Source: Nitrospinaceae bacterium
GTDB lineage: Bacteria; Nitrospinota; Nitrospinia; Nitrospinales; JACRGP01
Direction: 5' to 3'
NCBI GenBank assembly: GCA_029261555.1
Contig: JAJDBB010000022.1
Location: 1 to 51,227, forward strand
Length of the DNA stretch: 51,227 bases
Part shown: piece by piece, positions 3,502 through 51,227 of the stretch
Numbering within the stretch: position 1 is the stretch's first letter
How the letters are laid out: every line of letters starts with the position of its first letter
Made by a program: the position numbers and the translations under genes
The notes under the pieces: model-generated
Told to the model about the DNA's origin: nothing
Databases searched by the model: none
The model's input: only the letters and a program-made list of their open reading frames with translations

Positions 3502-3584
3502 GAGACAAATTAACAAAACCGCGCTCTAACCTCAAAAATTTCAATAAATTTACATTTCCCGCATAAAACTAACGAAAATAAAGG

Positions 3585-45332: not shown

Positions 45333-47420
45333 TCATTCGTGCTTTTTGGCGGCTTTGGCCGTTTCAATTACTTTTTGAGCTATATGGTCGGGCACGTCCT
45401 GGTAACCGGAAAACTCCATCGCGAACGCTCCGCGCCCGCCAGTCATAGCTGTTAAATCAACGGAATAATTCAAAACCTCAGCCATGGGAATCAGAGCCTT
45501 GACGCTTTGATCGGCTTCCCCAGCCTCGATTCCCATCACTTTTCCCCGTTTGGAATTGAGATCTCCCATGACGTCCCCCACATATTCGCTGGGAACGTTG
45601 ACCTCCATTTCCATGATTGGCTCTAGCAAAATAGGCTTACAATCCATCACGCCTTTTTTAAATCCCATGGAGCCTGCGATTTTAAAAGCCATCTCGGAGG
45701 AATCCACGTCGTGATAAGAACCGTCGTAGAGGGAGACCTTGACGTCGACCATGGGATATCCCGCGAGGACTCCCTGCGCCATAGCTTCCATGACGCCTTT
45801 TTCCACAGCGGGAATGTAGGTTTTCGGAATGGCTCCGCCGACAATTTTATTTTCGAAAACAAATCCTTCGCCTTTAGGGAGAGGAGAAATCTCCAGCCAT
45901 GTGTCTCCGTACTGACCGCGCCCTCCAGTTTGCTTTTTGTATTTCCCTTGAACCTTAGTTCGGCCTCGCAGTGTTTCCCGGTAAGGAACCTTGGGAGGAT
46001 GAAGATCCACTTCCACGCCGAACCGGCGCTTCATGCACTCGATGACAACGTCCAAATGCACCTGCCCCATTCCGGAAACCAGAAGGTCGTGGGTTTGAGG
46101 GTCGCGCTCAATCTTCAGAGTGGGATCTTCCTCCGCCAAACGATGCAGGGCAGTACTGATTTTTTCCTCGTCTGCCCGGGTCTTTGGAACCATGGCGCGT
46201 GCCATTACGGGATGAGGAAAAGAAATTGGGGCAAATACGACGGGATGCTCCTGGGCGCACAAGGAGTCGCCAGTAGTGGTCGTTTTGAGCTTGGCCACGG
46301 CGCCAATATCGCCGGCGGAAATTTCTCCGACCGGAACTTGTTTTTTCCCTTGCAAGCCAAAAACCTGCCCCACCCGTTCGGCGACGTTTTGCGTGGAATT
46401 AAAAACGCTTGAATCACCCTTGAGCGTCCCGGAAAACACACGAAAAAGAGTCAACTTACCCGCGTAGGGGTCGGCCACTGTTTTAAAAACCAACGCGGAA
46501 AGCGGCGCAGCCTCGTCGGACTTAACGACGACTTCTGAATCGTCTTGGGTGGACTTTCCCTTGACCTGCGGACGGTCTACCGGGGAAGGAAGGTATTCAA
46601 CGATGGCGTCCAGCAAGACGTCGACGCCCATATTCAACGTTGCGGACCCACAAACCACCGGAATTAATTCGCCGTTTAGGACGCCTTTCTTCAACCCGGA
46701 GTTAAAATCCTCGTTGGAAAGCTCGCCGGTTTCCAAATATTTTTCAATCAATTCATCGTCGGATTCGGCGACGTTTTCCACCAGCTCCGCGCGGATTATC
46801 TCGACGTCTTCAACGGCGTCTTGCGGGGCCTCACCGGATTCTCCCAAACCCTTTCCGCTTTTATCGTATTTTCTATATACGTTTTCGACCAGATCCACCA
46901 ACCCGGTAAACCCCTCGCCGGAACCAACAGGAATTTGAAGAAGGACTGGGGATTTTTTGAATTTTTTCTTTATCGAGTCCATAACCGCCTGAAGGTTGGC
47001 GCGCTCGTGGTCGATCTTGTTGATAAAAATTATTTTGGGCAACCCTTCATCCTCGGCCCATTTCCAAACCTTCTCCGTATAAAACTGCACGCCGTCGGCC
47101 GCAGAAACCACGACCACCGCGCCGTCCACCACCCTCAAACTCGACGGCGTATCGGCGATAAAATTACTGTTGCCGGGGGCGTCGATCAAATTTATCTTAT
47201 GTTTGTTCCATTCGCATAAAGCGATCGAGGCGTTTATGGAGTGACCGCGCTTGATTTCATCGGGATCGTAATCCATGACGGACGAGGAGTCCCCGACCTT
47301 TCCCAACCGATCAGATACCCCGGAGGCGTAAAGAATGGCCTCCGCCAGGGACGTTTTTCCGGAGGCCCCGTGGCCTACAAAACCGACATTACGAATTTGT
47401 TCCACCTTGTATTTTTTCAT
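45333..47420 (-). CDS. EF-G-like translational GTPase (EF-G 2 subfamily)
   Basis: A 695-residue GTPase. ATG 47420 is preceded by AGGGGTGG, so the longer frame is ignored. P-loop GHGASGKTS; switch II reads DAPGNSNF instead of the canonical DTPGHVDF, so the catalytic histidine is Asn84; NKIDHE is the G4 motif. Domains II-V follow, with GGRGQYGDTWLEISPLPKGE and GGRGAFAMEFSGYQD. It matches the EF-G-like paralogue subfamily rather than housekeeping FusA, which is usually found with rpsL/rpsG/tufA. Activity as a translocase is doubtful, and its role is not established. It lies in a minus-strand operon after the cNMP/MBL gene. Confidence 0.9.
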   Translation of the reverse strand: MKKYKVEQIRNVGFVGHGASGKTSLAEAILYASGVSDRLGKVGDSSSVMDYDPDEIKRGHSINASIALCEWNKHKINLIDAPGNSNFIADTPSSLRVVDGAVVVVSAADGVQFYTEKVWKWAEDEGLPKIIFINKIDHERANLQAVMDSIKKKFKKSPVLLQIPVGSGEGFTGLVDLVENVYRKYDKSGKGLGESGEAPQDAVEDVEIIRAELVENVAESDDELIEKYLETGELSNEDFNSGLKKGVLNGELIPVVCGSATLNMGVDVLLDAIVEYLPSPVDRPQVKGKSTQDDSEVVVKSDEAAPLSALVFKTVADPYAGKLTLFRVFSGTLKGDSSVFNSTQNVAERVGQVFGLQGKKQVPVGEISAGDIGAVAKLKTTTTGDSLCAQEHPVVFAPISFPHPVMARAMVPKTRADEEKISTALHRLAEEDPTLKIERDPQTHDLLVSGMGQVHLDVVIECMKRRFGVEVDLHPPKVPYRETLRGRTKVQGKYKKQTGGRGQYGDTWLEISPLPKGEGFVFENKIVGGAIPKTYIPAVEKGVMEAMAQGVLAGYPMVDVKVSLYDGSYHDVDSSEMAFKIAGSMGFKKGVMDCKPILLEPIMEMEVNVPSEYVGDVMGDLNSKRGKVMGIEAGEADQSVKALIPMAEVLNYSVDLTAMTGGRGAFAMEFSGYQDVPDHIAQKVIETAKAAKKHE

Positions 47421-47467
47421 TCGCCACCCCTGTATTTTGGAAAGAGCGCCAAAATGCGCGCTAACCG

Positions 47468-49873
47468 TCAACTAGTTTCAGGAATTCGAAAGTCTCCGGA
47501 TTCAATTTTCCTGACTTTTTGATAAACGGTCCCAAAGAAAGACGGAAACAGTTTGAACAACTTATAGGCTTCGTCCTTTTTCAACCGAATGGCGAAAACC
47601 TCGACGCTTTTTGCGATGGCCGTGGTCGCTCGAGGAACGTTTTTTAACAGTTCCAGTTCGCCAAACACGTCCCCCCCTTTCAAACTAGCCATTTTTTTGT
47701 TATTCGCGCCCAAAACCTCGACGTCTCCCGATAAAATAATAAACATATCCCGGTCCTTACCGCCCTTCTTAAAAATCACCTCGCCTTTTTTCCAATGGGT
47801 CATTTTTCCGAACGCCAGAGAGGCGATAAAACTGGGACTGATTATATCGTTGTAAAAACTGCGTATCTTGTAAAAATCGTCCTGGATATTTGGAAGCGAC
47901 AACTTTTTGTAAAACCGCTTGGGAATTTTTAACAGAGTGACGGGCGTCATGGCTCGAACGGTAGCCCTGCGATGGGGGTTCGGAGTGTTGACCGCAAGCT
48001 CGCCAAAAAATTTTCCCTTTTCGTAAATGGCTGAAGATTCCCCGTTGATAATTATTTCCGCAAATCCCTCCAGAATGACGTAAAAGGTCTCCCCGGTGTC
48101 GTACTGCATGAACACGGTCTCGTCGGCGTTGTAGTGAACCACCTCGGAACTTTTCAACATGCTCATGAGGTTTTTCTGATTGACCTCGTTGAACAGGGGA
48201 ACCTGTTTTAACGTTTCGATTTGGGAGTTTTTGCTCTCCGTTTTTCTTTTTATGAGAGTCCTGGTTTCTCCTTCGACGGCAAAGTGGAAATTTTTGTGCT
48301 TGATGGGATCCTCGTGCTGGTGAACCAAAACCAGGTTTTTGCCAAGGCTCTTTTTTTCCAGTTCCAGGGATTCCAGTTTGGTGTGTAAAATACCGCCCCC
48401 CACGTCGTGGATAACCATGTCCGCGTCCCAAATAAAACCCAACACCATGTCGCGTCGCTTTTTAGTAAAAACTCCCTGCTGGTACCATTCGTCGACTTTT
48501 TCGACGTCAAATTTTGTGTCGCCGGAATGGCTGATGGCCCTGGTTTGTTTGCCGTCCTTGTAGGTCAGGATAAAACGCCCACACGGGATGGAGTGCAGGG
48601 AATAATCAAAAGTAAAATAGGTGTTTTTAAAACCCGGCAGTTTAATTTTCTTTTGCGGCTCCACTTCAATAAAATCCACTAGACTTTCAATCATGTCCGA
48701 AGGAAAACAGGTCAGAGCCTCGACCTTGCGGAGAAAACTGTCGAAGATAATGCGAGTGGAAATGATTTTAACGCGTTTCCCAAACAGGATCGTTTCAACC
48801 AGTCCCAGATCGTGATCCGAGTGAACATGGGTTAGAAAAACGCATTCGACGTCGTCCTCGGAAATTCCGTTGCCCAGCGCAAGGGCGGAGCTGTCGTGAA
48901 GCGCGTCCACCATGACCCCCTTGCCCTCCGACCAGACCACCACGCAACTGTTGTGCCTTTTCGGGGCGAAGCCGGATCCAACGCCTAAAAAGGTCGCCCC
49001 CATAAAGGGTTTTGACATTGGTTTGATTTTTACGGCCTGGGGATTGGCGTCCAAAACGCTGATATCGATTTCACATTTGAGCTCCCGCTTGTGGTAAATG
49101 CGAAACACAGAGGGTTGGACTTGAACCACCTTGATTTTTTTTCTGGAATCGCTTTCGCTTTGAATGGAAATGGCGCCGCTGGAGTCGAAATGGGCGAACT
49201 GAATAATTTTTTGAGTGAATTTTTTCCGATCTTTCTCTGGAGCGAGCGCAAATAAATCCATTTCGGATTTTAATTGGGCGCAAAGAAGATAGTTTTTTGA
49301 AAAAATAGAACGCAGGTCCAAACCCTTTTTGGAGGGCAACCATTTTTGAGATTTTAAAAGGTCGGAAAAATATCCTTCTATCCTTTGCAGGATTTTTTTG
49401 TCCCCGCAATGGTCCGCAAGCAGACTTTGATAAAATCCCCACAAAAAATCATCATAGGCGACTTCATCCAGAAACAAATTGAATCGGTCGATCTTTTTCG
49501 GAGTTAAATCAAGCCGGGCAATTAAGGATTTGAATTGCGAACGAATAATCTGGTTAAACCGGGGGCCAAAAAGCGTTTCATTCAGAATAATCAGAAAACG
49601 CTCTTTTTGTTCGGGGGTGCAGTAGAAAATGATTTTCCCCTGATTGGGGCGTATAAAAAGATAACTGTAAACGATGAACTCAAAGTCAAAATTATTCCGG
49701 CCCTGTACAAATGTGCGAATCGGAATCACAAACCGATTCGGCAACGGCCTGTTTTGGACCGTAAAATCCTTCACAATTCCCGGCGGACATCCAAAAACCA
49801 TTTCGCCAAAATCCCTGGTTTCCAAAACCCGGTAATTGTGCCTTTTTAAAATCTTAAAATTCTTATCTTTCAT
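47468..49873 (-). CDS. Metallo-beta-lactamase-fold protein with two cyclic-nucleotide-binding domains
   Basis: An 801-residue protein with an unusual layout. Residues 1-285 are an unrecognised domain without signal peptide. Residues about 290-530 form a metallo-beta-lactamase fold: LTHVHSDHD (His349, His351, Asp353, His354), SLHSIP (His427), SHSGDTKFD (Asp452), HDVGGG and LVHQHEDP, the pattern of the RNase Z/ribonuclease-like branch. Residues about 550-670 and 680-790 are two cNMP-binding domains; each keeps the phosphate-binding cassette (FFGELAVNTPNPHRRATV; VFGELELLKNVPRATT) with Glu and Arg. A hydrolase gated by cAMP, cGMP or another nucleotide is inferred. It lies three bases after der, and 47 bases before the EF-G-like gene. 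Confidence 0.87.
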   Translation of the reverse strand: MKDKNFKILKRHNYRVLETRDFGEMVFGCPPGIVKDFTVQNRPLPNRFVIPIRTFVQGRNNFDFEFIVYSYLFIRPNQGKIIFYCTPEQKERFLIILNETLFGPRFNQIIRSQFKSLIARLDLTPKKIDRFNLFLDEVAYDDFLWGFYQSLLADHCGDKKILQRIEGYFSDLLKSQKWLPSKKGLDLRSIFSKNYLLCAQLKSEMDLFALAPEKDRKKFTQKIIQFAHFDSSGAISIQSESDSRKKIKVVQVQPSVFRIYHKRELKCEIDISVLDANPQAVKIKPMSKPFMGATFLGVGSGFAPKRHNSCVVVWSEGKGVMVDALHDSSALALGNGISEDDVECVFLTHVHSDHDLGLVETILFGKRVKIISTRIIFDSFLRKVEALTCFPSDMIESLVDFIEVEPQKKIKLPGFKNTYFTFDYSLHSIPCGRFILTYKDGKQTRAISHSGDTKFDVEKVDEWYQQGVFTKKRRDMVLGFIWDADMVIHDVGGGILHTKLESLELEKKSLGKNLVLVHQHEDPIKHKNFHFAVEGETRTLIKRKTESKNSQIETLKQVPLFNEVNQKNLMSMLKSSEVVHYNADETVFMQYDTGETFYVILEGFAEIIINGESSAIYEKGKFFGELAVNTPNPHRRATVRAMTPVTLLKIPKRFYKKLSLPNIQDDFYKIRSFYNDIISPSFIASLAFGKMTHWKKGEVIFKKGGKDRDMFIILSGDVEVLGANNKKMASLKGGDVFGELELLKNVPRATTAIAKSVEVFAIRLKKDEAYKLFKLFPSFFGTVYQKVRKIESGDFRIPETS

Positions 49874-49876
49874 ATA

Positions 49877-51202
49877 TCAGGAGCTTTTGGCCGGCTTGTT
49901 TGGGGAAAAAACCAGTTTAACTGGAGTTCCGGAAAAACCAAATTCCTTACGCAAAAAATTCGTCAAATAACGCCGGTAAGAAAAATGGATGCCTTCGGGA
50001 TAATTCACAAAACATCGAAAAGTCGGAGGCCGGTTTCGAATTTGAGTCGAATAATACAATTTCAAAAGTTTCCCCCGGTACTGGCTCATCGGATTTTTCA
50101 ACAAGGCTTTTTCAAAGCAGGAATTGATTTTCCCGGTGGAAATTTCCTTGCAATACTCGTCGAACACGGCGTCGATTTGCGGAAACAGTTTATTCAGACG
50201 TCTTCCCGTTTTAGCGGACAAGTTTATTATAGGAGCAAAATCCAGGAACTTTAAATGACCTCTTGCCTCTTCCTGGTAGTCCGTAAAGCTTTTTTCGCCC
50301 TTTTCAACCAGATCCCATTTATTAAAAACGATCACGCAAGCCCGTCCTCTTTCCAAAGCGTACCCGGCAATCGCCGCGTCCTGGCTCGTTACGCCCGCTT
50401 GGGCGTCTAAAACCAAGACAACCATATCACTCCGCTCCATGGCTTTCAATGCCATGATCACGCTAAACTTATCTAGCAGTTTTTTAGTCTTTCCCTTTTT
50501 CCTGATGCCAGCGGTATCGACAAATATATATTTTTTGCCCTCGACTTCTAAAATCGAGTCCGTTGTGTCCCGCGTGGTTCCCGGCACGTCCGAAACAATG
50601 CAACGCGAGGAATTCAACAGCTTGTTTATCAAAGAGGATTTGCCCGCATTAGGTCGCCCCACCACGGCCACCCGAACGGCTTTTCCGTCGTATTCCTCCT
50701 TCGGAATTTCCGGGAAAGTTTCGACGACGTCTTGTAACAGGTCGGATATACCCAGCCCGTGTTCGGCGGAAACCGCATATAATTTTTTCACGCCCACTTT
50801 CGCAAAGTCGCCCAACTGATTGAAATGGCCGGGAGCGTCCACCTTGTTGACCGCAAAAAACCAAGGTTTTCCTGCCTTGCGAATATCTTCCAGGACGTCC
50901 AAATCGCTTGGAGTCAGGCCCTGCTGGTTATCCGCCAGGATCACCACGGCGTCCGCCTCTTCCCTTGCCAGCAACGATTGCTCTTTTATTTTTAATTCAA
51001 CGGGGTCGTCGCCGACGTCGACGCCGCCCGTGTCGATCAAAATAAATTGCTTGTCGAACCAACAGGCCTGGCCGTAATTCCTATCACGGGTAACGCCCGG
51101 CGTGTTATGGACAATGGCGTTCCTCTGACGAACGATTTTATTAAACAGCGTGGATTTCCCCACATTGGCGCGGCCCACAATGGCCACCACTGGAATCGCC
51201 AT
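49877..51202 (-). CDS. der: GTPase Der (EngA), ribosome assembly
   Basis: A 441-residue tandem GTPase for 50S subunit assembly. The first G domain has GRANVGKST, DTGGVDVG and NKVD; the second GRPNAGKSS, DTAGIRKKGK and NKWDLV; the C-terminal KH-like domain ends with KEFGFSGTPVKLVF. ATG 51202 gives the conserved MAIPVVAIVGRANVGKS; a TTG at 51217 is possible. It is the first gene of the minus-strand run here, but the operon may continue beyond the window edge. Confidence 0.97.
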   Translation of the reverse strand: MAIPVVAIVGRANVGKSTLFNKIVRQRNAIVHNTPGVTRDRNYGQACWFDKQFILIDTGGVDVGDDPVELKIKEQSLLAREEADAVVILADNQQGLTPSDLDVLEDIRKAGKPWFFAVNKVDAPGHFNQLGDFAKVGVKKLYAVSAEHGLGISDLLQDVVETFPEIPKEEYDGKAVRVAVVGRPNAGKSSLINKLLNSSRCIVSDVPGTTRDTTDSILEVEGKKYIFVDTAGIRKKGKTKKLLDKFSVIMALKAMERSDMVVLVLDAQAGVTSQDAAIAGYALERGRACVIVFNKWDLVEKGEKSFTDYQEEARGHLKFLDFAPIINLSAKTGRRLNKLFPQIDAVFDEYCKEISTGKINSCFEKALLKNPMSQYRGKLLKLYYSTQIRNRPPTFRCFVNYPEGIHFSYRRYLTNFLRKEFGFSGTPVKLVFSPNKPAKSS

Positions 51203-51227
51203 GGCATTCAAGCTCAAATCGAAGGAG

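Follow-up and report, generated by a model that had tools for sequence, protein, structure and literature searches.

A metallo-beta-lactamase protein with cyclic-nucleotide-binding domains in Nitrospinales, probably a cyclic-nucleotide-regulated phosphodiesterase

In bacteria, the enzymes that remove a cyclic-nucleotide messenger are often unknown. The window analysed here, a stretch of 51,227 nucleotides from a Nitrospinaceae bacterium, raises the question whether a gene near its end encodes such an enzyme or acts in translation, as its neighbours der and EF-G might suggest. An earlier note, made from the sequence, had read the product as an unassigned N-terminus followed by a metallo-beta-lactamase (MBL) domain and two cyclic-nucleotide-binding domains (cNBD1 and cNBD2). 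Pfam and the orthologues bear out this make-up, with matches of the 801-residue protein to Lactamase_B (PF00753, E 1.7e-8) and, in two stretches, to cNMP_binding (E 6.4e-31). The ATG start lies 3 bp past the der stop codon. As orthologues of 45-88% identity are spread through the order Nitrospinales, the open reading frame is not a chance one; the closest named relative, from a Nitrospinaceae MAG, is 88% identical. The genome holds one copy of the full-length protein, and plasmid searches with the gene gave partial matches only, mostly to the cNBDs, or none. Within the collection of papers searched, none dealt with bacterial MBL-cNBD phosphodiesterases, and to our knowledge no activity is known for any bacterial member of the family.

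Table 1. Features of the MBL-cNBD gene and its neighbours in the window.
Feature	Position	Strand	Basis or conservation
EF-G paralogue, downstream, start taken at MKKYKVEQ	45333..47420	(-)	NCBIfam NF009381, 968 bits
MBL-cNBD protein, 801 aa	47468..49873	(-)	ORF, Pfam domains, orthologues
cNBD2, about residues 685-775, cassette FGELE...PRATT (E739, R748)	47549..47821	(-)	degenerate in most orthologues
cNBD1, about residues 551-660, cassette FGELA...RRATV (E625, R635)	47894..48223	(-)	
MBL-fold domain, residues 288-545	48239..49012	(-)	Pfam PF00753; solved relatives
His518, last metal ligand by motif	48320..48322	(-)	invariant, 46/46 rows reaching H518
His497 (LHT motif)	48383..48385	(-)	invariant
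Asp452, bridging metal ligand by motif	48518..48520	(-)	invariant
His427, metal ligand by motif	48593..48595	(-)	invariant
HxHxDH metal motif, residues 349-354	48812..48829	(-)	invariant in all 47 aligned relatives
N-terminal region, residues 1-287, conserved core about residues 10-112	49013..49873	(-)	invariant columns, profile matches
der (ribosome biogenesis GTPase)	49877..51226, reaches window edge	(-)	NCBIfam TIGR03594, 528.6 bits, cut-off 306.7

The MBL domain carries the full ligand set HxHxDH, His, Asp, His: THVHSDHD supplies H349, H351, D353 and H354, and H427, D452 and H518 follow. Class II MBL phosphodiesterases, among them YhfI and yeast PDE1, bind two metals with these ligands and open cyclic-nucleotide (cNMP) rings. 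In 26 orthologues the first six residues are invariant, as is H518 wherever a row reaches it. Eight active-site residues, including H497, which we take to be the counterpart of the RNase Z auxiliary His, do not vary among 47 relatives, drawn from Nitrospinota and from many further families; this alignment combines orthologues, paralogues and out-of-phylum relatives, one of which ends before H518. The complete metal signature claimed by the earlier note is thus confirmed, with H497 in addition to its list, and the loss of ligands across orthologues that would have told against it is not seen. Of its alternative for the last ligand, His518/520, H518 stands, while H520 is replaced by Asn in three relatives.

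Profiles of the MBL domain do not discriminate a phosphodiesterase from a nuclease. Against solved structures the best matches were Apyc1-type chains (7t28, 7u2r and 7u2s), followed closely by ELAC1 and RNase Z. Single-sequence scores ranked RNase Z (33 bits) above Apyc1 (16.5 bits), both far under the cut-off: the curated RNase Z model gave 33.1 bits against 292.95, and the Pfam model of Apyc1 (PF23023) 16.5 against 50. Apyc1 is a cNMP phosphodiesterase (PMC9117128) and shares the MBL fold with HxHxDH. Its solved chains, however, comprise 245-257 residues without a cNBD or the N-terminal domain, and identity is low. RNase Z and ELAC1 likewise share the fold and the ligand motifs, but the spacing between the motif III His and the motif IV Asp is 25 residues, too short to accommodate the RNase Z arm; an RNase Z-like protein from this genome has 88. 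These genomes encode separate RNase Z-like proteins at other loci, which also score under the curated cut-off.

Of the two cNBDs, the first is the better preserved. E625 and R635 are invariant in all 18 full-length Nitrospinales orthologues (45-88% identity to the window protein); in the 47-protein alignment four distant relatives have Gln, Leu or Asn in place of the Glu. The corresponding pair of cNBD2 is kept in about 5-6 of the 18, namely in the window species and a few near ones, so that the two domains are unequal. Hence, two intact cassettes, as described in the earlier note, are correct for the window protein but not for the family, and the cassette loss that the note had set as evidence against itself affects, in these 18 orthologues, cNBD2 and not cNBD1. 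In both PKA and PKG, the residue after the phosphate-binding Arg helps to discriminate cAMP from cGMP. Here it is Arg or Lys, and the identity of the ligand cannot be guessed from it.

The layout of the C-terminal two thirds has a characterised counterpart in Dictyostelium GbpA and GbpB, intracellular cNMP-activated cNMP phosphodiesterases with the order MBL-cNBD-cNBD (PMC11988041). As in this type, the window protein has two cNBDs C-terminal to the MBL domain and an intact Glu and Arg in both cassettes; the comparison is one of domain layout, taken from their description. A known family with exactly the architecture of the window protein, which the earlier note had named as a possible refutation, is therefore found only in part, as the MBL domain with two cNBDs. 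Unlike the eukaryotic proteins, some of the bacterial relatives have no cNBDs.

The N-terminus matched no Pfam family over residues 1-288, and comparison with Pfam and solved structures gave nothing convincing. Nevertheless it is not an orphan region: the motifs FGCPPxxxK, FDFEF and ETLFGP form invariant columns of the Nitrospinales alignment, and a profile of the Nitrospinales N-terminus matches the same region of out-of-phylum MBL proteins (domain E 6e-17 to 3e-8, values that come from a small database of 166 proteins), with the motifs in register in the joint alignment. A more distant branch of paralogues, the L097 type, has a related GCPxxxVK N-terminus (local profile score 30.6; the highest score among 150 column shuffles was 21.6). 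By these comparisons the N-terminus is a conserved domain that neither Pfam nor NCBIfam contains; the 'unknown N-terminus' of the earlier note holds in that no database family covers it, but not in that it belongs to a wider family, found in 18 sampled out-of-phylum genomes. It accompanies the MBL domain in every complete member examined. A degenerate MBL copy was considered for this domain and is unsupported (profile comparison score 13.9; 19 of 100 shuffles scored as high). Structure models of the window, L008 and L069 sequences were poor, with a pLDDT of 51 for the N-terminus and 36 at full length.

The protein belongs to a widespread bacterial family without a name. Among 387 genomes sampled across the domain Bacteria, relatives occur in the 18 genomes outside the phylum mentioned above; most combine the N-terminal domain, the MBL domain and two cNBDs, some with a hemerythrin-like end, while four proteins from two genomes (L208, L209, L211 and L212) consist of the N-terminal and MBL domains only. 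Since some members lack cNBDs and most have two, the cNBDs were probably lost or gained more than once. No translation genes were found among the annotated neighbours of the out-of-phylum relatives. Two L097-type paralogues (L097:731-1675 and L128:6239-7048) adjoin response-regulator GGDEF proteins, and a 4-bp overlap with an upstream GAF-HD gene is seen for the MBL-cNBD gene of two genomes, related to each other, from a different lineage (L198:6469-7686 and L201:2758-3999).

Within Nitrospinales, four families share the order der/MBL-cNBD/EF-G/IHF/MerR; the gene lies -17 to +12 bp from der and 47-477 bp from EF-G. The conservation of this order, which the earlier note had proposed to check, therefore holds over four families but is broken elsewhere: in five checked genomes (G037, G060 and three others) the gene is absent from this place and der and EF-G are adjacent, 109-388 bp apart, and in G011 (genus g9) a 46-residue relic of its 5' part remains between them (L105:3227-3364). 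Because the gene can be missing from this cluster while der and EF-G remain neighbours, the link to translation or ribosome assembly that had been drawn from them is unsupported. Many of these genomes have at least two EF-G types, the downstream EF-G (window 45333-47471) representing one of them; another copy, 42-44% identical, directly precedes a 398-residue open frame matching an EF-Tu-like gene.

A different neighbour is found in genus g9. There the orthologue ends naturally after the MBL domain, without cNBDs, at 544-545 residues (three genomes), and the gene follows a GAF-GAF-PAS class III cyclase on the same strand at a distance of 79-81 bp (G048, G055, G060 and G064); in G048 and G064 it is cut off by the contig end, and the G037 contig begins 339 bp before the gene. 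The cyclase retains the catalytic motifs FSDIRGFT, IGDAI and VNLAAR. With tandem GAF domains at the N-terminus and the cyclase at the C-terminus it resembles the Anabaena CyaB2-type cyclase (PMC4411481). This adjacency of a cNBD-less form to a cyclase points to cyclic-nucleotide turnover rather than translation, although it was seen in one genus only and with the cNBD-less form only. Phylogenetically, the g9 form is placed with the der-linked forms of families f1 and f4 and not with its own family, which could reflect transfer or a placement error; the tree favours an origin of the cyclase-adjacent form inside the der-linked one, a separate origin not being rejected (AU p 0.1). A g9-type copy is also found on a contig filed as viral (IMGVR_UViG_3300006347_000020; L069:3511-4831), joined to a truncated phage-like DNA polymerase gene. 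From base 3511 on, this contig is 84% identical at the DNA level to G060, and it probably reflects a chimeric assembly, not a gene carried by a phage.

Class III cyclases also co-occur with the gene, in 25 of 26 sampled Nitrospinales genomes that have it against 20 of 35 that do not (Fisher p 0.0008) and in 18/18 out-of-phylum carriers against 190/292 non-carriers (p 0.001), both values uncorrected for phylogeny and genome size. As such cyclases are present in roughly two thirds of the bacterial genomes sampled, this is weak evidence and only supportive of a role in cNMP turnover.

Taken together, we favour, with a probability of about 0.6, a class II MBL-type cNMP phosphodiesterase set allosterically by its own cNBDs, a reading drawn from sequence and from analogy. 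The protein is conserved and probably active as such an enzyme; it would be cytoplasmic, its MBL domain holding two metal ions and opening the phosphodiester ring of a 3',5'-cNMP. The messenger would bind cNBD1, and in the window species probably also cNBD2, and alter the activity of the MBL domain, most likely by stimulating it, in analogy to GbpA and GbpB; in that case a rising messenger would speed its own removal. The N-terminal domain would form part of the catalytic core unit, as it is kept with the MBL domain even when the cNBDs are lost. The metal hydrolase under cyclic-nucleotide control proposed by the earlier note is supported to this extent, by the conserved catalytic residues, the conserved cNBD1 cassette and the cyclase neighbour in one genus; that the activity is a phosphodiesterase, that its substrate is a cNMP and in which direction it is regulated, we infer.

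A cNMP-regulated RNase in translation or ribosome assembly would account for the tight linkage to der in four families and for the scores to RNase Z models, and yet we regard it as very unlikely: der and EF-G stay together where the gene is gone or reduced to a relic, the g9 gene adjoins a cyclase instead, the 25-residue spacing has no space for the arm, RNase Z-like proteins are encoded separately, and the annotated neighbours outside the phylum are not translation genes. Somewhat less improbable, but still unlikely, is an MBL hydrolase for another substrate (a 2',3'-cNMP, a cyclic dinucleotide or a small ester) in which the cNBDs merely sense cNMP. The MBL superfamily is functionally broad, and the GGDEF and GAF-HD neighbours would suit such a substrate; direct hydrolysis of the messenger is the better fit to a cNBD-less form beside a cyclase, and GbpA and GbpB, the nearest characterised layouts, hydrolyse the cNMP that they sense. 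There is also little to recommend cNBDs that have given up cNMP binding and act purely as structural or dimerisation modules. The decay of cNBD2 in most orthologues, the replaced cNBD1 Glu in four distant relatives and the relatives without any cNBDs agree with it, but not the invariance of E625 and R635 over full-length orthologues that are as little as 45% identical to the window protein.

If the favoured phosphodiesterase reading is true, several bacterial lineages would be supplied with a self-regulated phosphodiesterase, a bacterial parallel to the slime-mould GbpA/GbpB layout, and the sensor-free form beside the cyclase makes the role of the sensor directly testable. A bolder version appears doubtful: a widespread family of messenger-gated cNMP phosphodiesterases with an obligatory N-terminal domain (perhaps an inactive copy of the MBL domain or an additional sensor), gated by or degrading an unusual cyclic nucleotide, which cNBD1 might allow with its basic residue at the base-discriminating position.

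Among the L097-type relatives, a C-terminal hemerythrin-like region is frequent (L098:1320-3938, L213, L214, L215 and L216), in L098 with an NCBIfam match to bacteriohemerythrin; such ends suggest oxygen or iron sensing coupled to a phosphodiesterase-like core. A 58-residue relic of an L097-type N-terminus lies between trmFO-like and cysE-like genes in G057 (L131:4795-4968).
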